DNA of 52,459 bases, from the NCBI GenBank assembly GCA_015068555.1, contig SVKI01000010.1, positions 1-52,459 on the forward strand, in the 5' to 3' direction. How positions within the stretch are numbered: the stretch's first letter is position 1; every line of letters begins with the position of its first letter. Shown piece by piece: positions 23,786-36,421 of the stretch. The position numbers and the translations under genes were made by a program. The notes beneath the pieces were generated by a model. It worked only from the letters and a program-made list of their open reading frames with translations. It made no database searches and was not told the DNA's origin. This stretch comes from Oscillospiraceae bacterium. GTDB taxonomy: Bacteria > Bacillota > Clostridia > UBA1381 > UBA9506.

Positions 23786-24343
23786 TTATTTACGGTTAGC
23801 AAGATATGCTGCTCTACCCTCTTCGTATAGGTTATTGCCTTCGCTGTCAATAATGACAACCAGAGGCATATCTTCCACATACAGCTTACGCAGAGCCTCA
23901 GCACCTAAATCCTCAAATGCGATTAGTTCTGCACTTTTAATGCACTTTGCAAGCAGTGCACCCGCACCGCCGATTGCACCAAAGTAAACACCGCTATGCG
24001 CCTTCATGGCTTCCACAACTTCCGGCAGGCGAGCGCCCTTACCAATCATGCCACGTGCACCAACCGACATCATCGTCGGTGCATAGGCATCCATACGACC
24101 GCTTGTGGTCGGACCGGCAGAACCGATTACCTGACCGGGTTTAGCAGGCGTAGGGCCGACATAATAGATGGTCGCATCCTGCGGGTCAAAGGGAAGCTCC
24201 TCACCGCGAGCCAGTGCTTCGCACATTCTCTTATGACCTGCATCACGGGAGGTGTAAATGGTACCGGTTAAAAGCACTTCGTCACCGGCTTTTAAGCTTT
24301 TTGCAAGTTCCTCTGTAAGAGGTAATGTTATCTTTCTGGCCAT
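23786..24343 (-). CDS. fumB-like: Fumarate hydratase, beta subunit (Fe-S, class I)
   Basis: A 185-residue swivelling domain corresponding to the C-terminal part of class I fumarases (also TtdB of tartrate dehydratase). Segments: AGDEVLLTGTIYTSRDAGHK, YYVGPTPAKPGQVIGSAGPT, TSGRMDAY and MIGKGAR. With the alpha subunit it interconverts malate and fumarate using a [4Fe-4S] cluster. GGAGGTG for this gene lies in the end of the alpha gene, one base away. The tartrate dehydratase alternative is less likely given mdh and fumarate reductase in the same operon. Confidence 0.9.
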   Translation of the reverse strand: MARKITLPLTEELAKSLKAGDEVLLTGTIYTSRDAGHKRMCEALARGEELPFDPQDATIYYVGPTPAKPGQVIGSAGPTTSGRMDAYAPTMMSVGARGMIGKGARLPEVVEAMKAHSGVYFGAIGGAGALLAKCIKSAELIAFEDLGAEALRKLYVEDMPLVVIIDSEGNNLYEEGRAAYLANRK

Positions 24344-24344
24344 A

Positions 24345-25187
24345 TTAAAGCACCTCCGATTTATGACGGGTTACATGACAGTTAATGTTAATGGCACAGG
24401 GCATACCTGCGATATGTGTTGGCAGTGTTTCAATATTTAAGCCAATCGCTGTGGTTTTTCCGCCAAAGCCCTGAGGACCAATACCCAATTCGTTGATTTT
24501 TTCAAGCATTTCTTTTTCAAGGTCTGCATAAAACGGATCGGGATGAGAAGAATCGAGCGGTCTCATCAGTGCCTTTTTAGCAAGCAGCGCCGCCTTATCA
24601 AAGGTACCGCCGATACCCACGCCAACGACCATAGGCGGGCAGGGATTCGGACCGGCAGTTTCCACAGCTTCAATGATAAAATCTTTGATACCCTGCAGAC
24701 CTGCAGAAGGCTTAAACATGCGAATCATGCTCATGTTTTCGCTACCAAAGCCTTTGGGGCCAACAGTAATTTTTACCTGCTCACCGGGCACAATCTCAGT
24801 GTAGAGCATTGCCGGTGTATTGTCGCCGGTGTTGCCGCGACGCACGGGATCACCCACAACAGATTTACGCAAATAGCCTTTGTCATAACCGCGGCGAACG
24901 CCTTCGTTTACAGCATCTGTCAGGTCGCCGCCAACTAAGTGAACATCCTGACCGATTTCTAAAAATACGCAAGCCATGCCGGTATCCTGACAAATGGGCA
25001 CATTTTCGTTATCTGCAATTTCAAAATTTTCAATGATGTTATCCAAAACGCCTTTAGCGATTTCGCCGTCTTCACATGCACGGCAGCTTTTAATGGCACA
25101 TTTAACATCTTCGGGCAAATGATTATTTGCTTCAATACAAAGCTTTTCCACCACATCGGTGATTAAACTGACATTAAGTTCACGCAT
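24345..25187 (-). CDS. Fumarate hydratase, alpha subunit (Fe-S, class I)
   Basis: A 280-residue protein carrying the three cysteines of the catalytic [4Fe-4S] cluster, in CRACEDG, PICQDTGMA and NPCPPMVVGVGIGG. It makes the split form of class I fumarase, oxygen-sensitive and typical of anaerobes. Other family segments: GCCGKTT-type end is replaced by PQGFGGKTTAIGLNIE. AAAGGAG precedes the ATG. It lies 12 bases after the exchanger gene and is the step from malate (made by Mdh) to fumarate (used by the reductase). Confidence 0.92.
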   Translation of the reverse strand: MRELNVSLITDVVEKLCIEANNHLPEDVKCAIKSCRACEDGEIAKGVLDNIIENFEIADNENVPICQDTGMACVFLEIGQDVHLVGGDLTDAVNEGVRRGYDKGYLRKSVVGDPVRRGNTGDNTPAMLYTEIVPGEQVKITVGPKGFGSENMSMIRMFKPSAGLQGIKDFIIEAVETAGPNPCPPMVVGVGIGGTFDKAALLAKKALMRPLDSSHPDPFYADLEKEMLEKINELGIGPQGFGGKTTAIGLNIETLPTHIAGMPCAININCHVTRHKSEVL

Positions 25188-25199
25188 TGAAATTCTCCT

Positions 25200-26468
25200 T
25201 TACTTAAAGATAATAATCAAGAACTGCGATACCAGAACAACTACAATGAGTGCGATGGGATAAGTAGCTGCATAAGCTGCTGCAACCTCTTCGGTGCCTG
25301 CCGTGTTAATCAGGGTGCCCAATGCAGGCGTTGAGGTCATACCGCCTGTGATAGAACCCAGGTTGTTGAGCAAGCTGAGTTTTAACACATATTTAGCAAA
25401 CAGATAACCTACAATCATGGGGATAATTGTCATAATCACGCCGTATACAAAATACATGGGGTCAAAGTTTGCAACAAACTCTGCACCGCCGGGAATACCG
25501 GCACCGATTAAGAACAACATCAAGCCCAATTCGCGAAATACCTTTAAGGTAGATTCCGGCGGCATTAAACTAATTTTTCCGGCTCTGCCAAAGTGACCGA
25601 ACACCAAAGACATTAAAAGACAACCACCGGTTGTGGTGAGAGAAAAAGCTGTTCCGCTGATGCCGTTTCCGGCAAACAACGAAGCATAACCGCCACCGGA
25701 CAGAGGAATTTTAATCATGCCGACTAAAACGCCGATGATAGCCGCCAGTGCAAACGCCGCAATACCAAAGCCGTCAAGTTCAATCAACTTGCCTTTGTAT
25801 TCCTTCTTTTCGCCGTCATCAATCTGCGTCAGTTTAGCTCTTTCTTCTGCCATATTAGCCTTAGAGAATTTCGGCACGAGTTGAACGAATAGAACAACGC
25901 CCAGCACGCCGAAGATATAGGCAATACCGTGGCCAACAGAAACAAGGCTTTCAAGTTCAGCTGCAACCGTGTCCTTCGCTGCAGAAAAAGCTGGTGTGGA
26001 GGTAAGAGAACCGGATAAAAGACCAACAATCATCGCTGTAAAACCTTCTCTGGTTTCAATGCTTGAACCGTAGCCAAATATCTCGCCTAAGTAAATACAA
26101 CCAGCAGCCGAAAGTCCACCGGCAATGATGATTAAAAGACCCAAAAGCACATAGGATTTAAAATTCTTTTTCATATTGCTGAAGAACTTGGGACCGGCAA
26201 TAAAGCCGACTGAGGTTACAAAGAAAATTAAGCCTAAGCTTTCAATAATCTTCAAAGCCTTGTCGGTATATTCAGGCAGTTGTGCAGCCAAAGGCTTATA
26301 GAAAAAGCAACCAAAAAGCAGAGCGACAATAAATACGCCGGCTGTTCCTAAATTAACGCCCTTAATCGTTACACGACCCAGTGCATATCCCAGGAAGGCA
26401 ATAATCATCAAGCAAAACATTAAAAAGGTAATTCCCGTAACAGAAATTACGCCACCAAATAATGTCAT
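25200..26468 (-). CDS. AspT/SucE-type (AAEx family) dicarboxylate exchanger
   Basis: A 422-residue integral membrane protein with about ten to twelve helices in two halves around a soluble central loop (about 215-240). Each half has the family signature: GLLSGSLTSTPAFSAA and GGMTSTPALGTL. AspT exchanges aspartate for alanine, and the relative SucE exports succinate. The start at 26468 (MTLFGGV) follows GAAAGGAA; further upstream ATGs lack a site. Placed between fumarate reductase and fumarase genes, it most likely exchanges C4-dicarboxylates (for example malate, fumarate or aspartate against succinate). The substrate is inferred from context. It lacks the TrkA_C central domains seen in some relatives. 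Confidence 0.8.
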   Translation of the reverse strand: MTLFGGVISVTGITFLMFCLMIIAFLGYALGRVTIKGVNLGTAGVFIVALLFGCFFYKPLAAQLPEYTDKALKIIESLGLIFFVTSVGFIAGPKFFSNMKKNFKSYVLLGLLIIIAGGLSAAGCIYLGEIFGYGSSIETREGFTAMIVGLLSGSLTSTPAFSAAKDTVAAELESLVSVGHGIAYIFGVLGVVLFVQLVPKFSKANMAEERAKLTQIDDGEKKEYKGKLIELDGFGIAAFALAAIIGVLVGMIKIPLSGGGYASLFAGNGISGTAFSLTTTGGCLLMSLVFGHFGRAGKISLMPPESTLKVFRELGLMLFLIGAGIPGGAEFVANFDPMYFVYGVIMTIIPMIVGYLFAKYVLKLSLLNNLGSITGGMTSTPALGTLINTAGTEEVAAAYAATYPIALIVVVLVSQFLIIIFK

Positions 26469-26516
26469 AACAAATATTCCTTTCTTATATGAAATAAATT
26501 TCCGTCTATACATCCG

Positions 26517-26550
26517 AAACACCGGGGCGGTCACAACCGCCACGGTGTTT
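26517..26550 (-). other. Strong intercistronic hairpin
   Basis: In the 94-base gap between the flavoprotein gene and the exchanger gene, AAACACCG/CGGTGTTT and GGCGGT/ACCGCC form a 14-bp stem with one mismatch. No T run follows on the minus strand. It is probably an RNA processing or stabilising element that divides the operon into redox and transport/fumarase parts; partial termination is possible. Confidence 0.65.
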
Positions 26551-26562
26551 TAGGAACAATTT

Positions 26563-28161
26563 TTATCTTTCGTGACGGGCATACTGAGGCAGCAGGAGCG
26601 GAGATACCGCATCGCCTGCAAGGCCGGCACCGGCCAGTTCCTTAGCATAGTCATCAACATGTGACAGCGTCATCGTGCCTAAGGTTACGTCCTTAGCACG
26701 AGCTGCTGCAGCCTTACCTGCATTACGACCAAATACAATAATATCAAGCAAGGAGTTACCCATCAGGCGGTTTCTGCCGTGGATACCACCAACTGCTTCG
26801 CCGGCAACGAGCAGGTTGGAAATTGCTTTGGTAAAGCCATCGCCACCAATTTCAAGACCACCGTTCTGATAATGCAGAGTGGGATATACAAGGATAGGAA
26901 CCTTTCTCATATCAATGCCGTAATTTAAGTACATACGAAGCATTGCAGGAATTCTCTTTTCGATAGTGCCTTCGCCACCTAAGATTTCAATCATCGGTGT
27001 ATCCAGCCATACACCGCTGCCAAGCGGTGTGTCTACACCCTTGCCGTTGGCGCATTCACGGATAATGGCAGAAGCTGAAACGTCTCTTGTTTCAAGAGGA
27101 TGCGCATAGGCTTCACCATCTTTATTAACGAGCATTGCACCCAAAGAGCGCACTTTTTCAGTAACGAGCGCACCAAAAATCTGTGAAGGATATGCAACAC
27201 CTGTGGGATGATACTGAATGGTATCCTGATACAGAAGGGGTGCACCGGCACGGTAACCTAAAATCAGACCGTCGGCTGTAGCACCGTAATGGTTGGAGGT
27301 CGGGAAGTTCTGATAATGCAGGCGACCTGCACCGCCGGTTGCGATAACAACGGTTTTAGCACGGGCAACTGCGTAATCGCCGGTTTCCATATTAAGGAGC
27401 ACGGCACCTGCAACCTGACCCTTTTCATCTTTAATCAGTTCCACTGCAGAAGTAAATTCTACCACGGGAATACCGCGGTTAATCACTTCATCACGCAGAG
27501 TACGCATGATTTCTGCACCGGAATAGTCTTTGCAGGCATGCATTCTTTTTCTGGAAGTACCGCCACCGTGGGTGGTAACCATGCGACCGTCAGCATCTTT
27601 ATCAAACATAACGCCCAGATTGTTAAGCCATTTTATGGCATCGGGAGCTTCCATAACCAAACGACGCAGAAGTTCGGGGCGCGCTGCGAAGTGACCGCCG
27701 CCAAACGCATCTAAGTAATGCTGAACGGGAGAGTCGTTCTCTTTATCAGCTGCCTGGATGCCACCTTCTGCCATCATGGTGTTGGCATCACCGATACGAA
27801 GCTTAGTAACAATCATAACATTGGCACCGGCTTCGTGTGCTTCGATTGCCGCTGAAGAGCCGGCACCGCCGCCACCAATGACCAGCACATCCACATCATA
27901 GTCAACTTTAGAAAGGTCAACGGATGTGTGTAACAGTCTGCTGTTTGAATGCAGCAAATCAGTCAGTTCTGCCGGGGCTTTCTGACCCTTGTTGGGTCCA
28001 ATTTTAATTTCTTTAAATCCATCTTCACGGTAGTCGGGATGGTATGCCTTAAGAAGGGCATCCTTTTCATCGGCCGTCATTCTTCTGGGCTCTGTTTTCA
28101 TACGCTCCTGACGGGTTGCCTCCACCTTTTTGATAGATTCAAGCATTTCCGCTGTAAACAT
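26563..28161 (-). CDS. Fumarate reductase/succinate dehydrogenase-type flavoprotein, soluble form
   Basis: A 532-residue FAD protein. About 88 residues precede the FAD fold (VLVIGGGGAGSSAAIEA, 93-109), an unusual N-terminal extension, and only about 50 follow the last FAD segment (GRNRLMGNSLLDIIVFGR), so the C-terminal domains of SdhA/FrdA are missing. The histidine that binds FAD covalently in FrdA is replaced by N127 (NTMMAEGG). Substrate-site elements remain: YHPTG, TEKVRSLGA with the catalytic-type arginine, ETRDVSASAI and LHYQNGG. TAAGGAGGG precedes the ATG. It resembles the flavoprotein of thiol:fumarate reductase more than membrane FrdA. It should reduce fumarate to succinate with electrons from the adjacent Fe-S protein. 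L-aspartate oxidase was considered and rejected on context. Confidence 0.85.
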   Translation of the reverse strand: MFTAEMLESIKKVEATRQERMKTEPRRMTADEKDALLKAYHPDYREDGFKEIKIGPNKGQKAPAELTDLLHSNSRLLHTSVDLSKVDYDVDVLVIGGGGAGSSAAIEAHEAGANVMIVTKLRIGDANTMMAEGGIQAADKENDSPVQHYLDAFGGGHFAARPELLRRLVMEAPDAIKWLNNLGVMFDKDADGRMVTTHGGGTSRKRMHACKDYSGAEIMRTLRDEVINRGIPVVEFTSAVELIKDEKGQVAGAVLLNMETGDYAVARAKTVVIATGGAGRLHYQNFPTSNHYGATADGLILGYRAGAPLLYQDTIQYHPTGVAYPSQIFGALVTEKVRSLGAMLVNKDGEAYAHPLETRDVSASAIIRECANGKGVDTPLGSGVWLDTPMIEILGGEGTIEKRIPAMLRMYLNYGIDMRKVPILVYPTLHYQNGGLEIGGDGFTKAISNLLVAGEAVGGIHGRNRLMGNSLLDIIVFGRNAGKAAAARAKDVTLGTMTLSHVDDYAKELAGAGLAGDAVSPLLLPQYARHER

Positions 28162-28867: not shown

Positions 28868-29722
28868 TTAATATTCATTGGGCAGCTCGTCTATCTCGTC
28901 GCAACGAAATACCGGGCCATCTTTACAAACATATTTGGAGCCGATGTTGCAGCGTCCGCATTTACCAACGCCGCACTTCATACGGAGCTCTAACGTGGTG
29001 TAAACCTGCTCTTTAGAAAAGCCCATTTCCATCAGAGCCGCCAAAACAAATTTAATCATAATCGGTGGCCCGCAAACAAGAGCGGTTTTATCGGTTGAAA
29101 AACCGATTTCCTTAAGGTAAGCGGGTACAAAGCCAACATGACCTTCCCATCCCTCTTGCTCTCTGTCGATGGTGAGATATACGTTCACGCCCTCTGTTTT
29201 TTCCCAAACCTCGCGAATTTCCTTAAGCTGAACCAAGTCGTCAGCAGAGCGGGAACCGTACAGAATGTCAACGGTGCCGTAGTTTTCGCGATTATCAATG
29301 ACGTAATTGATAACAGAGCGAAGCGGTGCAAGACCGATACCGCCGGCAATAAACAAAAGATTTTTACCCTTTAACTCGGTTTCTACGGGGAAGTTGTTAC
29401 CGTAAGGTCCGCGAACGGTTATCTCGTCACCAACTTCTAAGCTGTGCAGTTGCTCAGTAAGCATTCCGCAACGCTTAATGCTGAATTCCTGATACTCCTT
29501 ATTGGTAGGAGAAGATGTAATCGAAAACATACCCTCGCTGACACCTGGCACGCAAACCATAGCGCACTGACCGGGCATATGCTCGAACAGTTTACCACCT
29601 TCGGGCGCATTCACACGGAAGGTTTTAACATCCGGTGTTTCCTGACGGATATCGGTGATGATACCCACCTTTGGAATTAATGTGTCAAGCGAAAAGTCGT
29701 CATGGCAATGACAATCACACAT
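28868..29722 (-). CDS. flxA: FlxA-like NAD(P)H:acceptor oxidoreductase module (FAD, [2Fe-2S])
   Basis: A 284-residue flavoprotein of the ferredoxin-NADP reductase superfamily, related to sulfhydrogenase gamma and anaerobic sulfite reductase B. Order: a short Cys/His-rich N-terminus (MCDCHCHDD), an FAD domain (MFSITSSPTN), the nucleotide-binding domain (FIAGGIGLAPLRSVI; ALVCGPPIM) and a C-terminal [2Fe-2S] site (CGVGKCGRCNIGSKYVC). It should take a hydride from NADH and feed the Fe-S subunits. GAGGAGGG precedes the ATG at 29722, which overlaps the upstream gene by eight bases. The FlxA name follows the Flx-Hdr precedent in sulfate reducers. Confidence 0.85.
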   Translation of the reverse strand: MCDCHCHDDFSLDTLIPKVGIITDIRQETPDVKTFRVNAPEGGKLFEHMPGQCAMVCVPGVSEGMFSITSSPTNKEYQEFSIKRCGMLTEQLHSLEVGDEITVRGPYGNNFPVETELKGKNLLFIAGGIGLAPLRSVINYVIDNRENYGTVDILYGSRSADDLVQLKEIREVWEKTEGVNVYLTIDREQEGWEGHVGFVPAYLKEIGFSTDKTALVCGPPIMIKFVLAALMEMGFSKEQVYTTLELRMKCGVGKCGRCNIGSKYVCKDGPVFRCDEIDELPNEY

Positions 29723-30752
29723 TTGCTTTTCCCTCCTCTTGCGCAAAAGCTTTAATCACCTTTACAATATTGAGTGATGCGGGACATTTATCCACACAAC
29801 GTCCGCAACCTACGCAGGAATACATACCGTCGTTATTGGCCGGGAAGTATACCAGCTTGTGCATAAACCGCTGACGGAAGCGCTGCATCTGACTGGTACG
29901 GTTGTTACCGTGCGCCATCATGGTAAAGTCAGAGTACATGCAGGAGTCCCAGCAACGGTATCTCTGTACGCCGTTACCTGTGTTATAATCCTTAATGTCA
30001 TAACATTGGCAGGTTGGGCAAGAGAAGGTACAGGTACCGCAAGCTAAGCAGGGCTTATATAATTTTTCCCACAGGGGAGAATCAAATTTTGCATCCAGTG
30101 CGTTGCCGTCCCAACCTTCTAAGGAAAGGTTAGCATACGGCAGCTTTTCTGTGATAGCACGAATCGAAGCCATTTCTGCTTCCACTTCTGCTTCATCGCA
30201 TTCAGCTAAAACAGAAGCAACAATTTTTGTGAGGGCTTCACCCTTTTCAGTCAGCGCCTTCCAGTAGAGGTCCTCGCCAATCAGCCAGGCTGCTATATCA
30301 GCGGCGGGCTCTGCCGCATCTACGCCAAATACCTTACAGAAGCAGGATTCTTCCGGCTCGTGACAAGCCAAAGCCACGATGGTGCCGTGGGCACGGCGTG
30401 CGGCATAGAAGGTATCAACCGGATCAGATAAAAAGACTTTATCCAACACCTCGATACCCTTCACATCACAGGCACGCATACCAAAAACGGTAAACGGCTT
30501 ATCCTGCAATGCTTCCGGTTCGATGGAAAGCTTTTTATCTTCTCTGCGGCAGGTGTACAGCGTTTCGCTTTGCGGGAAGAATGCGTCCTTAGGCGATTTT
30601 ACGGTTTTTAAGGTGTCGATATCTACAATCGCATCTTCATCCCAGGCTGCAAAGTTAGCACTGCCGTTTATATCAACCGGTACATATAAATCCTGAGCGT
30701 CTGCAATCAAACGGAATAATGATGGCAGTTCGCTTTTTGCTATTTTAAACAT
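29715..30752 (-). CDS. FlxB/FlxC-like 4Fe-4S dicluster protein (hydrogenase beta/AsrA type)
   Basis: A 345-residue protein of the family that includes sulfhydrogenase beta and anaerobic sulfite reductase A. The N-terminal 230 residues have no cofactor motif except a possible site at GMRACDVKGIEVLD and CFCKVFG; the C-terminal part has two four-cysteine motifs, CLACGTCTFSCPTCQC (about 235-250) and CVGCGRCVDKCPAS (about 315-328). It probably wires FlxA to the Hdr core. AAAGGGGAT precedes the ATG, three bases after the previous gene. Which Flx letter applies cannot be decided without alignment. Confidence 0.82.
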   Translation of the reverse strand: MFKIAKSELPSLFRLIADAQDLYVPVDINGSANFAAWDEDAIVDIDTLKTVKSPKDAFFPQSETLYTCRREDKKLSIEPEALQDKPFTVFGMRACDVKGIEVLDKVFLSDPVDTFYAARRAHGTIVALACHEPEESCFCKVFGVDAAEPAADIAAWLIGEDLYWKALTEKGEALTKIVASVLAECDEAEVEAEMASIRAITEKLPYANLSLEGWDGNALDAKFDSPLWEKLYKPCLACGTCTFSCPTCQCYDIKDYNTGNGVQRYRCWDSCMYSDFTMMAHGNNRTSQMQRFRQRFMHKLVYFPANNDGMYSCVGCGRCVDKCPASLNIVKVIKAFAQEEGKANV

Positions 30753-30755
30753 ACA

Positions 30756-31727
30756 TTATCCCCTTTCTGCAACAATGCTCGGTTCAACGTCTTCAAAGGT
30801 GAAATCGGTGAGCGGGCCTTTGGCTTCTGCATCGCTACCAGCCTGGAATTCACCATAGAATTCGTTGATATCCTTGATAAATTTGCGGTTAAACAAATGA
30901 AGCGGAATACCCTGCGGGCAAACACGACTGCATTCACCGCAATCGGTACAACGTCCGGCCACATGGAAGGCACGGATGATGTGGAACATTTTTTCTTCAA
31001 AGGAATCCACATTTGCTTTTTGTGCACTGTCAAACTTGGTGCTGTCAAACACACATTTACGGCAACTGCAAGCCGGGCAAACATTACGACAGGCGTTGCA
31101 GCGAATGCACTTGGAAAGCTCCTTCTGGAAGAAGGCAAACTTTTCTTCGGGGCTCATGGCCTCAATTTTTTCTACTTCGCTGAAGCGCTCAGCATCGACT
31201 GTATCAACCGATTCGCCAATCACCTCATCAAACACAACGTGTTCCTTGCCCTTGCAAACGTGGCAACGTTCGAGCATTGCATCGTTATAAGCACAGGTTT
31301 TGGTGCCATACAGGGTTTCAACCGTGAGTGTATCAGGGCCGTCCATTTCGGCGCCGGATACCGCTGTGATGCCCTTAATGCCAAGCTTTTTCATGCGCTC
31401 AACATCGAGCTTGCCACGGCAACCCACACCAATGATGTAGGCATTTTCACGCACAACACGGTGTTCTTTTAAAAGCTGATTAAAGCTATAAGAATCGCAA
31501 GGTTTTAACATAACTAAAGTTTTACCTTCCTGCTTGCAGGCTTCAATCATATATTTGCTTAAGTTGGCACCGCAGAATCCGTTATACACAAATTCTTCGA
31601 GTTCCTCAGCAGTTTCAAAAAATGCCGGTTCCGGGTTGTAACCCAGATCGCCCTTTTTCCAACCAAGTACGCGATTAACAGCACCGCTTGAAAGAAGCTC
31701 CTTGGCACGATTCACTAATTCTTGCAT
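30756..31727 (-). CDS. FlxB/FlxC-like Fe-S electron-transfer protein
   Basis: A 323-residue soluble protein. The middle (MLKPCDSYSFNQLLKE, VGCRGKLDVERMKKLG, ERCHVCKGKEHV) resembles the F420/formate dehydrogenase beta (FrhB/FdhB) family; two ferredoxin-like motifs follow, CIRCNACRNVCPACSCRKC (about 208-226) and CTDCGECSRVCPQG (about 260-273). GGGGGAT precedes the ATG, which overlaps mvhD by 13 bases. It is one of the Flx electron carriers between NADH and HdrA. Confidence 0.82.
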   Translation of the reverse strand: MQELVNRAKELLSSGAVNRVLGWKKGDLGYNPEPAFFETAEELEEFVYNGFCGANLSKYMIEACKQEGKTLVMLKPCDSYSFNQLLKEHRVVRENAYIIGVGCRGKLDVERMKKLGIKGITAVSGAEMDGPDTLTVETLYGTKTCAYNDAMLERCHVCKGKEHVVFDEVIGESVDTVDAERFSEVEKIEAMSPEEKFAFFQKELSKCIRCNACRNVCPACSCRKCVFDSTKFDSAQKANVDSFEEKMFHIIRAFHVAGRCTDCGECSRVCPQGIPLHLFNRKFIKDINEFYGEFQAGSDAEAKGPLTDFTFEDVEPSIVAERG

Positions 31728-32152
31728 CTCAAATCCCCCAATCTGACATTTCTGCCCAGAGAATGGATTTTCTCAACAAATTCATTCATGGTCGTAGAGA
31801 ATTTCACGCCCTCAGCTGCAGAAACCCATTCCACGCGCGTACGGCCGTTTTCAACGCCGATGTAATCCAGCATGGAGAACAGCAGGGTCATTCGTCTTCT
31901 TGCGTAATAGTTGCCCGTGCTGTAGTGACAGTCGCCGGGGTGGCATCCGCAAAGAATTACACCGTCGGCACCCTTTTCAAAAGCACGCAGAATGAACATG
32001 GGATTCACGCGGCAGGAACAGGGTACGCGAATGATTTTTACATCTGCAGGATACGAAAGACGGCTGCTGCCGGCAAGATCTGCACCGGCATAGCTGCACC
32101 AGTTACAGCAAAAGGCCACAATTTTCGGCTTAAAGGTTGTATCTATCGACAT
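31715..32152 (-). CDS. mvhD: MvhD/FlxD-type [2Fe-2S] linker protein
   Basis: A 145-residue protein of the methyl-viologen-reducing hydrogenase delta family, which connects an electron input module to HdrA. The cysteines cluster as CCNWC (15-19), CSCRVNP and LCGCHPGDCHY, the conserved pattern. The ATG at 32152 gives MSIDTTFKPKIVAFCC and lies ten bases inside the end of hdrA; an upstream ATG is in frame but lies deep in hdrA. Its presence shows that the Hdr complex here receives electrons from a docked module rather than working alone. Confidence 0.92.
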   Translation of the reverse strand: MSIDTTFKPKIVAFCCNWCSYAGADLAGSSRLSYPADVKIIRVPCSCRVNPMFILRAFEKGADGVILCGCHPGDCHYSTGNYYARRRMTLLFSMLDYIGVENGRTRVEWVSAAEGVKFSTTMNEFVEKIHSLGRNVRLGDLRCKN

Positions 32153-34131
32153 ATTGCATCTACCTCCGCTATAATCTGTCTGTTCGAGAAGCCCTGCAGG
32201 TCCATAGCACCTGACGGGCATGTTACGGTACAAGCACCGCAACCCTGACACAGAGCATTATTTACCACAGCAACACGACGGGTTTCACGAATGCCGTGGT
32301 CGTTGATTTCTTTATCTTCATAGGTAATGGCGCCATACGGACAAACGTTAGCACAAGCCGAGCAGCCATTACATAACAGTTCATCAGATTTTGCTGTACA
32401 GGGGTTCGTCATCAGCTTATCCTTAGCCAAAAGACCAATGGCCTTCACCGCCGCAGCACCTGCCTGGGCAACCGTTTCAGGAATATCCTTCGGACCCTGA
32501 CAAACACCGGATAAGAAGATGCCGGCTGTAGGAGATTCTACAGGGCGCAGTTTAGCATGGCCTTCTGTTAAGAAGTTGTTTGTATCGATGCTGGCCGTCA
32601 CCATGGTTGCAATTTTACGAACGGAAGGCTCTGGCTCGATAGCTGTTGCAAGCACAACCATATCCGCATAGGTCTTAATCTGCTTGTTATCCAGCATATC
32701 CACAGCCTGTACAAGCAACTGGCCGTCAGGCTGCGGTGCAACCTTACCAACCTGACCTTTTACATAATTGACGCCGTATTCCTCAACAGCACGGCGGTAA
32801 AATTCATCAAAGTTTTTACCGGGTGTACGAACATCAATATAAAATACGGTTACATCCACATCGGGATACTTATCACGGATGAGCATAGCATGCTTTGCTG
32901 TGTACATACAGCAAATTTTGGAGCAATAGCTCTTGCCGCGGTCATCACTGCAACGGCTGCCGACACACTGCACGAACACAATGTGCTTCGGATGTTTGCC
33001 GTCAGACAGTCTTTCTAAGTGACCCTTGGTCGGGCCTGCCGCATTCATAATGCGTTCCAGTTCCAAAGAGGTGATAACATCCTTGCTCTGGTTATAGGCA
33101 AATTCATCGTAGCGGTCAAGCTTTATGGTATCAAAACCGGTTGCCACCACGATGGCACCATACTTCTGCGTTACGATTTCGTCCTGCTGGCTGTAATCAA
33201 TCGCGCCGGCCTGACAAATCTTTTCACACAAACCGCACTTACCTGTTTTAAATTTGATACAGCTTTCGCGGTCAATCACAGGCACATTGGGGATAGCCTG
33301 TGCAAAAGGCGTGTAAATCGCGCTTCTGGTCGAAAGACCTCTGTTAAATTCACTGAGCGCCTTTTTGGACGGACATTTTTCCTGACAAAGTCCGCAACCG
33401 GTGCACTTTGTCATATCAATACTGCGGGCCTTTTTACGGATATCAACCGTAAAGTCGCCCACGAAGCCGGATACCTTTTCCACCTCACTGTAGGTGTGGA
33501 TGGTGATTTTTTCGTGCGCTGCCGCTTCCACCATTTTTGGGGTTAAGATACAAGCTGAACAGTCAAGCGTCGGGAAGGTTTTGTCAAGCTGTGACATTCT
33601 GCCACCGATACTGGGCGTTTTTTCAACAATGTCTACCTCGTAGCCTGCTTCTGCAATATCAAGTGCCGTCTGGATGCCGGCGATGCCGCCGCCAATCACA
33701 AGCGCACGCTTGGTTACAAGACTTTCACCCGGTTGCAGAGGCGCATTTAAATTCACCTTGGCAATGGCCGCACGGGCTAAGATAACTGCCTTTTCAGTGG
33801 CCACTTCCATATCTTTATGAATCCAGGAGCAATGCTCACGGATATTTGCAATTTCAACCATGTAGGGGTTGATGCCGGCACGCTCTGCCGCCTTTCTGAA
33901 GGTTGCCTCGTGCATACGGGGCGAGCAAGAGCAAACCACAATACCGGTCAGCTTCTTCTCGCGAATGGCTTCTGCGATTAAAGCCTGTCCTGCTTCGGAG
34001 CACATGTAGGGATAATCATCAGCATGAACAACGCCGGGCTCCTTCAGGGCCATTTCTGCAACTTTTTTAACATCTACCGTTGCTGCAATATTACTGCCGC
34101 AATGACATACAAAAACACCAATTCTTTGCAA
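32143..34131 (-). CDS. hdrA: Heterodisulfide reductase subunit A-like, electron-bifurcating flavoprotein
   Basis: A 662-residue protein, the site of flavin-based electron bifurcation in Hdr complexes. In order: an N-terminal HdrA-type Fe-S domain (VCHCGSNIAA; VVCSCSPRMHE), the FAD fold (ALVIGGGIAGIQTALDIAEA, 143-162) with CSAC at 191-194, a ferredoxin motif at 243-253, a second at 291-306 with a lengthened first gap (C-x8-C), and two C-terminal [4Fe-4S] motifs at 587-597 and 628-638. The preferred start is TTG at 34131, eight bases after AGGAGG; a GTG at 34140 overlaps that site. It lies between hdrC and mvhD. Confidence 0.94.
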   Translation of the reverse strand: MQRIGVFVCHCGSNIAATVDVKKVAEMALKEPGVVHADDYPYMCSEAGQALIAEAIREKKLTGIVVCSCSPRMHEATFRKAAERAGINPYMVEIANIREHCSWIHKDMEVATEKAVILARAAIAKVNLNAPLQPGESLVTKRALVIGGGIAGIQTALDIAEAGYEVDIVEKTPSIGGRMSQLDKTFPTLDCSACILTPKMVEAAAHEKITIHTYSEVEKVSGFVGDFTVDIRKKARSIDMTKCTGCGLCQEKCPSKKALSEFNRGLSTRSAIYTPFAQAIPNVPVIDRESCIKFKTGKCGLCEKICQAGAIDYSQQDEIVTQKYGAIVVATGFDTIKLDRYDEFAYNQSKDVITSLELERIMNAAGPTKGHLERLSDGKHPKHIVFVQCVGSRCSDDRGKSYCSKICCMYTAKHAMLIRDKYPDVDVTVFYIDVRTPGKNFDEFYRRAVEEYGVNYVKGQVGKVAPQPDGQLLVQAVDMLDNKQIKTYADMVVLATAIEPEPSVRKIATMVTASIDTNNFLTEGHAKLRPVESPTAGIFLSGVCQGPKDIPETVAQAGAAAVKAIGLLAKDKLMTNPCTAKSDELLCNGCSACANVCPYGAITYEDKEINDHGIRETRRVAVVNNALCQGCGACTVTCPSGAMDLQGFSNRQIIAEVDAICR

Positions 34132-34136
34132 TGTGC

Positions 34137-34526
34137 TCACCTCCTGTATCTTCTGAACGCACTAACCAAAAGCTGCTGGGGAAGTTCCTCGTCAAGCAGG
34201 GCGGGAATTTCATCAGCCTTTAAATAATCCTGACCCTTTTGACGCACCACAAGCTGTCTTGCGGCATCAATCAGCTTAGCCGGCTCCACATCGCGCGGGC
34301 AACGCTCTAAGCAGGCAAAGCAGGAAAGGCATTTCCACAGCGATTTGGAAGTCGCCAGTGCTTCAATTTCACCGTTCATGATATAAGACGCGAACTGATG
34401 CGGCTTAATATCCATTTCATTAAAAGAAGGACAAGCAGCAGAACATTTGCCGCACTTCATGCATTTGTACGGATTGCTGCCACTAATTTCTTTAATGAGC
34501 TGTACTTGATTTTTCATATTATTCAC
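34137..34526 (-). CDS. hdrC: Heterodisulfide reductase subunit C-like ferredoxin
   Basis: A 129-residue protein with two [4Fe-4S] motifs: C22-x2-C-x2-C-x3-C32 and C66-x2-C-x2-C-x3-C76. HdrC carries electrons from HdrA to HdrB. The GTG at 34526 follows GGAGG by 12 bases and overlaps hdrB by eight; the internal ATG three codons later is the alternative. Length is somewhat shorter than methanogen HdrC. Confidence 0.92.
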   Translation of the reverse strand: MNNMKNQVQLIKEISGSNPYKCMKCGKCSAACPSFNEMDIKPHQFASYIMNGEIEALATSKSLWKCLSCFACLERCPRDVEPAKLIDAARQLVVRQKGQDYLKADEIPALLDEELPQQLLVSAFRRYRR

Positions 34527-35316
34527 AGGCTTTTTCCGCCTCCTCTTTCACGCCGAGAGCTTCAGCCAGTAATTCGGTAAAGTAGTGTACGGGCAAGGTG
34601 CCGCTTTTATTTAAGTTATACATGCAAAGCGGACATGCGGTAATTAACATTTCTGCACCGAAACCGGCTGCACTTTCAAGCACCGTGTCGCACATAGATT
34701 TGGCCTGTTCCTTTTCTTTTAAGGAGATGTAACCGCCACAGCATTCGTTGCGGTAGGGATACACAACAGGCTCCGCACCGATGGCACGGATAAAATCTTC
34801 AATAATGGTGGGGTTTTCAGGGTCATCAAAGCCTAAAACCTTGCCGGGACGAAGCAGAAGGCAACCATAATAAGCACCTATCTTCTTGCCGGTTAAGGGG
34901 TTTGTTACCTTTTCTTTTAATACATCAAAACCCACTCTGTCACGCAGAACCTCTAAAAAGTGAAGCACGGTGGTTTCACCCGTATAAGGCACTTCGTTTT
35001 CCATATAGTTATTGGCTCTTTTGCACATGTCAGCGTTATGCTTCATATCATGATTCACACGCTTAATTACATGATGGCAAGCAGAACACAAGGTAACTAA
35101 ATCCTGCTCTTTTTCTCTTGCAGCGCAAAGTGCACGAACAGAAGAGAGCTTAGTTGCGATTTCATCTGTTCCTAAAGGATACACACCGCCGCAGCACTGC
35201 CAATCCTCAATTTCTTCTAAGGTAAAGCCCAGCGCTTTGGCCGAGGCTTTAGCATAAGCATCTAAATCCCGCGCTTTCGTGCGCAGCGTGCACCCCGGAT
35301 AATAACTGTACTTCAT
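34519..35316 (-). CDS. hdrB: Heterodisulfide reductase subunit B-like (two CCG domains)
   Basis: A 265-residue protein with both CCG domains complete: C9, C41-C42-G-G, C77-x2-C80 in the first; GCLLLRP, ECCGGY and CPLCMYN in the second. In HdrB each holds a non-cubane [4Fe-4S] cluster that cleaves a disulfide. Whether the acceptor here is a disulfide or the clusters serve as a relay to the FrdB-like subunit is not known; the full set of ligands argues that real chemistry takes place. It lies 20 bases after mdh. Confidence 0.93.
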   Translation of the reverse strand: MKYSYYPGCTLRTKARDLDAYAKASAKALGFTLEEIEDWQCCGGVYPLGTDEIATKLSSVRALCAAREKEQDLVTLCSACHHVIKRVNHDMKHNADMCKRANNYMENEVPYTGETTVLHFLEVLRDRVGFDVLKEKVTNPLTGKKIGAYYGCLLLRPGKVLGFDDPENPTIIEDFIRAIGAEPVVYPYRNECCGGYISLKEKEQAKSMCDTVLESAAGFGAEMLITACPLCMYNLNKSGTLPVHYFTELLAEALGVKEEAEKACE

Positions 35317-35336: not shown

Positions 35337-36284
35337 TTACAGTGTAATCTGGCTGATAACGCTCTTTAACATATCAGCGCTGTTATGAAGCTTTTTGTAT
35401 TCCTCATCATTCAGTTTAACGGGCACCTTGCCGTAAACACCCTTGGGACCGATTAAGGTCAGCGTGGAGAGGCAAACATCTTCTAAGTCATACTCGCCAT
35501 GCATCATGGTCGAAACAGTAACAATTGAGTTGTTTGTTGACATCAACACCTTACACAAGCGAACAACAGAAGCGGATACTGCATAGAAGGTAGCACCTTT
35601 ATTGGCGATGATAGTACCACCGGATTTACGGGTGTATTCCTCAATAGCTTCTCTGTCGAGTCTGGGCACTTCACGGCCGGCGGCCTTAGATAAAGCAATA
35701 TATTCATCCAGCATAACACCGGAAACCTGCGCACAAGACCAGGGTACAAAAGAAGAATCACCATGTTCACCAAACACATAAGCATGAATGTTTTTCTGTG
35801 CGATGTCGAAATGTTCAGAAAGAGCCACACGCAAACGCGCCGTATCAAGCAATGTACCGGAACCGATAATCTGGCGTTCAGGCAGACCGGAAATCTTGGT
35901 GAATACATGTGTAATAATATCTACGGGGTTGCTCACAATTACATATAAAGCATTGGGAGCCGCCTTGGTGATTTCGGGTGCTACACTTTTAATAATATCT
36001 ACATTGGCCTGCGTTAACTCAATTCTTGTCTGACCGGGCTTTCTGGCAAGACCGGAAGTGATGATAACGATGTCGGAATCCTTTGCATCGGCATAATCAC
36101 CGGATTCAACCGAGATAGGATCACGGAAGCTGGTACCCTGCAGGATATCCATAACCTCGCCGTCAGCCTTTTTCTTATTGATATCAATCAATACGATTTC
36201 TGTCGCGAGATTTTCGTTTGACAGTGTATACGCGATGGTTGAACCAACACTGCCTGCACCAATGATAGTAATTTTACAACTCAT
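35337..36284 (-). CDS. mdh: NAD-dependent malate dehydrogenase (LDH/MDH superfamily)
   Basis: A 315-residue cytosolic enzyme. The Rossmann motif is ITIIGAGSVGSTIAY, with catalytic histidine in GEHGDS, NPVD and the substrate arginine in DTARLRVAL. In the mobile loop GLARKPGQTR an arginine occupies the specificity position where lactate dehydrogenases have glutamine, which favours oxaloacetate/malate. The first-gene position ahead of fumarase and fumarate reductase genes agrees. AAAGGAGAG precedes the ATG at 36284. It would reduce oxaloacetate to malate with NADH, the first step of the reductive branch. LDH remains a less likely alternative. Confidence 0.85.
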   Translation of the reverse strand: MSCKITIIGAGSVGSTIAYTLSNENLATEIVLIDINKKKADGEVMDILQGTSFRDPISVESGDYADAKDSDIVIITSGLARKPGQTRIELTQANVDIIKSVAPEITKAAPNALYVIVSNPVDIITHVFTKISGLPERQIIGSGTLLDTARLRVALSEHFDIAQKNIHAYVFGEHGDSSFVPWSCAQVSGVMLDEYIALSKAAGREVPRLDREAIEEYTRKSGGTIIANKGATFYAVSASVVRLCKVLMSTNNSIVTVSTMMHGEYDLEDVCLSTLTLIGPKGVYGKVPVKLNDEEYKKLHNSADMLKSVISQITL

Positions 36285-36421
36285 GATAGACTCTCCTTTA
36301 CATATCTTCAATTATAGACTGCAAAATCTTTAATCAGGTTCCGTCATCTGTATATCAAGCTTTTATTTTCCTGTTTTTTCCATGTTTTCAGACAACAAAA
36401 AACCTTTTATTACAGTATAAC

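Follow-up and report, generated by a model that had tools for sequence, protein, structure and literature searches.

The 52,459-nucleotide stretch of Oscillospiraceae DNA analysed here (the window) encodes an unusual fumarate reductase flavoprotein, FrdA. By alignment and tree reconstruction this protein is a member of a discrete, coherent family, which branches as a separate sister group to the complex II flavoproteins and is widespread in Clostridia. The members of this extended FrdA family carry a long N-terminal extension, have an asparagine where the flavin-linking histidine would stand and end shortly after the FAD domain. In the window the gene lies next to genes for an iron-sulfur partner, FrdB, and for a set of Flx and Hdr proteins (Table 1). 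We consider it probable, though far from assured, that FrdAB is a soluble, noncovalent-FAD fumarate reductase fed from NADH via Flx/MvhD-HdrABC, possibly with bifurcation, and that the extension lies packed against the core of the flavoprotein.

Table 1. Coordinates of the genes and features of the fumarate reductase region in the window.
Feature	Position	Strand	Basis or remarks
Class I (Fe-S) fumarase alpha + beta (presumed)	23786..25187	(-)	ORFs; identity read from sequence
AspT/Asp-Al_Ex transporter, candidate succinate exporter	25200..26543	(-)	start codon uncertain
frdA-like gene, 532 aa, predicted soluble fumarate reductase catalytic subunit	26563..28161	(-)	ORF, Pfam, alignment
Short C-terminal tail of FrdA, residues 490-532, replacing the ~130-aa Succ_DH_flav_C	26566..26694	(-)	Pfam, alignment
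Asn127 codon, position of the flavin-linking His (E. coli FrdA His44)	27781..27783	(-)	alignment
N-terminal extension of FrdA, residues 1-87	27901..28161	(-)	no Cys; restricted to the extended FrdA family
frdB-like Fe-S subunit, 224 aa	28175..28849	(-)	[2Fe-2S] C39/C44/C47/C65 and two CxxCxxCxxxC (C110-C120, C148-C158)
FlxA-like NAD(P)H-oxidising FAD subunit	28868..29746	(-)	FAD_binding_6, NAD_binding_1, DHODB Fe-S domain; start probably ~29722
FlxB-like Fe-S subunit	29715..30752	(-)	sulfhydrogenase beta / AsrA-like
FlxC-like Fe-S subunit	30756..31727	(-)	C-terminal half like FdhB of Fdh-Hdr complexes
FlxD/MvhD-like subunit	31715..32251	(-)	FlpD domain; start probably ~32152
HdrA	32143..34140	(-)	motifs for FAD and for ferredoxin-type [4Fe-4S]; proposed site of bifurcation at the flavin
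HdrC	34137..34526	(-)	two [4Fe-4S] motifs
HdrB	34519..35316	(-)	two CCG motifs for noncubane clusters, each invariant over 75 sequences

The frdA reading frame starts with an ATG at 28161, preceded by GGAGG about 8 bases upstream, and stops at 26563. With Pfam, FAD_binding_2 was assigned to residues 91-471 only (229.7 bits), the other matches being weaker, overlapping dinucleotide-binding families. Succ_DH_flav_C (PF02910) was not found by Pfam in the protein, nor was it found in the whole available genome (1.33 Mb, about 74% complete); the domain was detected in 11 out of 14 control genomes. Among the best 25 of the 60 NCBIfam models matched, none reached its own cut-off. The best match was to TfrA, with 331 bits over residues 88-500 (cut-off 718), and scores of 275, 250.5 and 205 bits were obtained for sdhA_frdA_Gneg (cut-off 567.3), nadB (cut-off 452.75) and the flavocytochrome c model TIGR01813 (cut-off 285.45). 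Automatic annotation is therefore likely to label the protein an ordinary FrdA.

A scan of reference genomes returned at least 579 related stretches. The best 80 of these, found in Lachnospiraceae, Oscillospiraceae and other Clostridia, matched with 80-92% identity, beginning at residue 1 or 2 and reaching residue 527 or beyond. The family is carried by 17 of 41 kin genomes (the window's own included), in two of them as fragments only, as counted from the individual rows. Across 398 genomes of the phylum, 47 gave a match at E≤1e-60. By the same kind of count a full-length family gene is present in 39 of the 47, a number that includes the window's own genome; excluding the window gene, identities are 54-65%. 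Ten other matches in the phylum were at most 41% identical, with start points at residues 85-89 in nine cases and 64 in one, and end points at 483-524; identity among the phylum matches thus drops from 54% to 41%.

For the alignment, 149 family-like loci were collected, one incomplete locus was dropped, and duplicates and the copy of the window itself (L081) were removed, leaving 126 sequences plus the window (127 members). These are 53-92% identical to the window FrdA, and other FrdA, SdhA and NadB proteins are at most 41% identical. In a tree of the core columns rooted on E. coli NadB, the family was monophyletic with a support of 1.0 and sister to the FrdA/SdhA-type group that includes E. 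coli FrdA and SdhA. TfrA was left out of this tree and compared through its NCBIfam model. No solved structure of the family was found by sequence among 60 of the 65 matches listed.

The window FrdA has about 87 residues before the FAD domain and 43 after the last FAD segment. Over the 127 members, 78-91 residues (median 87) precede the position of residue 88 and 40-54 (median 43) follow that of residue 489. In 13 comparison proteins the core is preceded by 3-42 residues, with one exception of 115, and followed by 125-187, with the exception of a 430-aa NadB-like protein with 38. The sequence-only reading had described the extension, the lost histidine, the missing C-terminal domain and an intact substrate site from a single protein; all four recurred in the alignment, and within the comparison set the combination of an extension with a short C-terminus was not common in membrane-type FrdA. 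A frameshift, a wrong start or a misassembly has a negligible probability as the origin of the odd ends. Nothing speaks for such an artefact beyond the unusual length, the ribosome-binding site at the ATG is good, and all 148 complete family ORFs measure 524-558 aa, a conservation of length across the sequences that already refutes it.

Upon alignment with E. coli FrdA, His44 corresponds to Asn127, which is invariant in 127 out of 127 members. The equivalent position is occupied by His in E. coli FrdA, E. coli SdhA and four Bacillota SdhA-type proteins, by Ser in E. coli NadB and by Gly, Asn or Asp in the other comparison proteins, so that asparagine alone is not unique to the family. An 8-alpha-histidyl flavin bond is impossible on asparagine. 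Residues His232, Thr234, Thr244 and Glu245 of E. coli FrdA align with His318, Thr320, Thr334 and Glu335, and Arg248, Arg287, His355 and Arg390 with Arg338, Arg359, His430 and Arg465. All of these except Thr234 are established catalytic residues of fumarate reductases. The positions of His232, Glu245, Arg248, Arg287, His355 and Arg390 are identical in all 127 members, and that of Thr244 is Thr in 126 and Ser in one. A further change, absent from the list of the sequence-only reading, is a remodelling of the loop at E. coli FrdA Phe116 to H198-G-G-G201, where the local alignment is ambiguous by one residue.

According to the available parts of two reports, the covalent bond raises the flavin potential, and complex II relatives whose FAD is noncovalent can reduce fumarate but not oxidise succinate (PMC9557727); the rise amounts to about 100 mV and is needed for succinate oxidation (PMC10238741). 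We infer that the window FrdA holds its FAD noncovalently and reduces fumarate. A Sdh5-type flavinylation factor was not found in the available genome, which supports noncovalent FAD weakly, since flavinylation without such a factor occurs in some prokaryotes (PMC9557727, available part).

The partner subunit FrdB contains two complete four-cysteine cubane motifs, conserved in 121 sequences, whereas the second motif of E. coli FrdB consists of C205, C211 and C215 only. The motifs predict one [2Fe-2S] and two [4Fe-4S] clusters and no [3Fe-4S] cluster. No CCG domain was found in FrdB with Pfam or NCBIfam. The genes for FlxA, FlxB, FlxC, FlxD/MvhD, HdrA, HdrB and HdrC are adjacent in the window and make up a FlxABCD-HdrABC gene set, the Flx names being our assignment from domain content. 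No membrane anchor gene was found in the operon; the ORFs between 23786 and 36311 all have other assignments. In a promoter and terminator scan, promoter-like sites were fewer than in shuffled sequences.

Neighbouring genes were labelled by tblastn with the window's own proteins at a coverage above 0.4. Among the close loci, the FrdB gene was present in 70 out of 70 with at least 1.4 kb of upstream DNA, and all eight partner genes (FrdB and the Flx-Hdr set) in 56 out of 56 with at least 8 kb. The genes at 23786..25187, which we take to encode the alpha and beta subunits of a class I fumarase, would make fumarate, and the alpha gene lies near frdA in 53 of the 62 close loci with enough downstream DNA. 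Fumarate is therefore the likely substrate. For HdrB, with both noncubane motifs kept, disulfide chemistry and a plain wire function are both possible; use of CoM or CoB is not known from these bacteria.

In the proposed mechanism, electrons would pass from NADH to FlxA and on through FlxB/C and MvhD to HdrA. At the HdrA flavin one stream would go to ferredoxin and the other via HdrC and HdrB to FrdB, from where the FAD and finally fumarate would be reduced. Noncovalent binding would lower the flavin potential, suiting fumarate reduction and not succinate oxidation, and succinate would leave through the adjacent AspT-type carrier. The extension would pack on the flavoprotein core and stand in for the lost C-terminal domain in part of its role in structure or in contact with FrdB. 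For 2 NADH + fumarate + 2 Fd, about -49 kJ/mol was computed at standard potentials, so that bifurcation would be feasible. It is HdrA alone that suggests bifurcation to ferredoxin, and the available part of a review warns that Hdr homologues alone are insufficient evidence for it (PMC5861303).

The extension is restricted to the extended FrdA family: in 199 genomes, 21 out of 21 matches to it lay within FrdA ORFs. Its predicted helices span residues 4-22, 30-40 and 64-70 and its strands 49-51 and 61-63, and the conserved motifs include HPD and GxNKG. It is less conserved than the core, with a mean frequency of the commonest residue of 0.67 versus 0.84 and with 8 out of 87 versus 138 out of 402 positions conserved at 98% or more. 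In a model of the full-length protein (mean pLDDT 70.8, pTM 0.76) the first eight ten-residue blocks have a pLDDT of 77-93, indicating a confidently folded extension; the active-site loops are poor, with blocks down to 35. Prediction of the extension alone was weaker (pLDDT 72, pTM 0.35). This behaviour, folded in the full protein and weak alone, fits a segment folding against the flavoprotein core.

Searched alone, the extension had no sequence match in the PDB at E values up to 1 and came close to the cut-off of no Pfam family; matches against PHROG were weak only (best E 0.0056), and Foldseek with the extension-only model, itself weak, returned nothing below E 2.5. For the full model, Foldseek ranked E. 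coli FrdA (1kf6_A, E 3e-27) and mycobacterial Sdh1 at the top. VIA-align gave a near tie between FrdA, SdhA and flavocytochrome c (Z about 21-23), covering only residues from about 67 to 523. In our reading the extension is a structural part of the FrdA/FrdB unit. As it always accompanies the loss of the C-terminal domain, it may have taken over part of the role of that domain, perhaps at the interface with FrdB.

Out of 39 distant family genes, 30 were examined with wide flanks. The full Flx-Hdr set was present at four of these loci, HdrA and MvhD without FlxA/FlxB at nine, and HdrB/HdrC without HdrA at four. At 13 no Hdr/Flx gene was found within about 14 kb, an upper bound, since in L131, L150, L153 and L157 one flank extends no further than 2-5 kb. 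With the full set missing at 26 of the 30 loci, the FrdAB family as such does not need Flx-Hdr. HdrA was searched at E≤1e-60 in 16 genomes, the 12 that hold the 13 Hdr/Flx-free loci and four with HdrBC only, and was present in 12. It was not found at this threshold in G420, G111, G336 and G107, each 99% complete. A CCG-domain protein was not found in G111, G336 and G107 either, and in G420 CCG occurred in one 723-aa ORF only. The FrdA proteins of these four genomes (L094, L097, L098 and L123) keep the same extension motifs.

These loci bear on the role of the extension, for which the sequence-only reading had suggested docking to the Hdr/Flx complex. All 56 close loci with sufficient upstream DNA have Flx-Hdr beside the extended FrdA, and canonical relatives without Flx-Hdr partners have no extension, as docking would predict, but the retention of the motifs in four near-complete genomes without an HdrA match implies that the extension is not simply a dock. 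The three genomes without a CCG protein and the 13 of 30 distant loci without a nearby Hdr/Flx gene also argue against docking. As a general role it found no support, and we regard it as quite improbable; it could apply to the Flx-Hdr-linked subset. A less improbable alternative, although still an unlikely one, is that FrdAB stands alone and takes its electrons from a diffusible carrier, be it ferredoxin, flavodoxin or a low-potential thiol produced by HdrB, with Flx-Hdr merely co-regulated. The same 13 loci agree with this, as does the retention in HdrB of both noncubane sites expected for disulfide reduction. However, the CCG domains with which TfrB oxidises thiols are missing from FrdB, and at L153, L156, L158 and L160 HdrB and HdrC precede FrdB without HdrA, which suggests direct HdrB-FrdB contact.

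Operation as a succinate dehydrogenase, by reverse bifurcation or confurcation, seems least plausible among the alternative functions and is very improbable. Four distant loci (L124, L130, L132 and L144) do lie beside succinyl-CoA ligase-like and TCA-type genes, as read by eye from ORF starts. Against this, Asn127 is invariant, noncovalent-FAD relatives do not oxidise succinate (PMC9557727, available part), and fumarase and a candidate exporter flank the window gene, as in a fermentative succinate operon (PMC7282089, available part). Feeding of a fumarate-reducing FrdAB from NADH through Flx/MvhD-HdrABC is our preferred reading for the window.

That operon is the 'succinate operon' of Pseudoclostridium thermosuccinogenes (CDQ83_RS03365-15), for which ferredoxin coupling or bifurcation has been proposed (PMC7282089). 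Like the window it comprises fumarase, a seven-gene Flx-Hdr set, a putative transporter for succinate and a fumarate reductase of two genes (CDQ83_RS03325-20), with the fumarase genes first whereas in the window they are last; the likeness is one of operon layout (PMC7282089). In the available literature on this operon nothing was found on the extension, the histidine position or the C-terminus (PMC7282089). In gammaproteobacteria, tfrAB is interspersed with flxABCD-hdrABC, and direct electron transfer has been suggested (PMC6315080, available part). TfrAB shares the Hdr-type link with the window, and FrdB and HdrB together match regions of TfrB. The TfrAB of methanogens is soluble. The TfrA model differs from the window FrdA in that it is longer by about 130 positions at the C-terminus and lacks the N-terminal extension, and TfrB carries the CCG domains that in the window are on a separate protein, HdrB.

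The E. coli FrdABCD and SdhABCD complexes share with the window the FAD_binding_2 domain, the catalytic residues, a partner with [2Fe-2S] and [4Fe-4S] clusters and the fold (1kf6_A). In contrast to them, the window FrdAB has no flavin-linking histidine, no PF02910, an extra N-terminus, a predicted second cubane instead of the [3Fe-4S] cluster and no anchor subunits in the operon. Shewanella flavocytochrome c3 has noncovalent FAD and no SdhA-type C-terminal domain. Like the window FrdA it has an extra N-terminal segment, of about 100 residues, and its structural Z is tied with that of FrdA, but this segment is a tetraheme domain whereas residues 1-88 of the window FrdA contain no cysteine.

For extracts of Blautia luti, MV:fumarate activities of 504-989 mU/mg over six growth conditions and transcription of frdAB were reported (PMC12773636, available part). 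In B. luti, the genome that holds the family member L071 encodes another FrdA-like protein, L163, which by eye has a longer C-terminus and Gln in place of the flavin-linking His. On account of this second protein the extract activity is not assignable to the extended FrdA, and it was rejected as proof of the function of the latter. In Clostridium sp. Marseille-P3244 the family gene (L042) was the single match at E≤1e-20.

In the available parts of the literature the succinate operon (PMC7282089) and the tfrAB-flxABCD-hdrABC cluster (PMC6315080) were found, and no description of the extension, the asparagine or the missing domain. The operon type is thus already known and the family-level diagnosis seems new; added here are the family definition, the invariant asparagine, the exclusive extension and the independence from Hdr. 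In the gut, succinate is a major exchanged product, and fumarate reduction in Clostridia without quinone-linked FrdABCD is poorly documented. The invariant asparagine, the missing C-terminal domain, the family-specific extension and the cubane-only FrdB together make a clean enzyme marker, with which ferredoxin reduction during succinate formation, and hence extra energy conservation, becomes testable.

A wider and more tentative proposal, which we hold as possible rather than probable, has three parts taken jointly. The extended noncovalent-FAD FrdAB would serve Clostridia generally as a 'plug-in' fumarate acceptor, connecting to a number of donor modules (Flx-Hdr in the case of NADH, Hdr-MvhD types, HdrBC alone and others). 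Succinate formation in gut Lachnospiraceae and Oscillospiraceae would be bifurcating and ferredoxin-reducing, and the N-terminal segment would act as a clamp onto the all-cubane FrdB in place of the SdhA C-terminal domain.

Some minor observations were made on the loci. The clusters at L153, L156, L158 and L160, ordered HdrC-HdrB-FrdB-FrdA and without HdrA, resemble a split thiol:fumarate reductase. At L129 a short, cytochrome-like ORF with a CxxCH motif stands before FrdB and could represent a further donor type, and at L143 and L146, in genomes without HdrA, frdBA is immediately preceded by a pyruvate-carboxylase-like gene of 1144 aa (both read by eye). In the window, a strong hairpin (AAACACC...GGTGTTT) at 26500-26562 (-) separates the frdA stop from the AspT-type transporter gene; it overlaps the listed start of the transporter, the true start of which is probably further in. 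Directly upstream of HdrB lies a gene (35337-36311, reverse strand) which we take, from its sequence, to encode an L-lactate dehydrogenase, and which is kept there in many close relatives.
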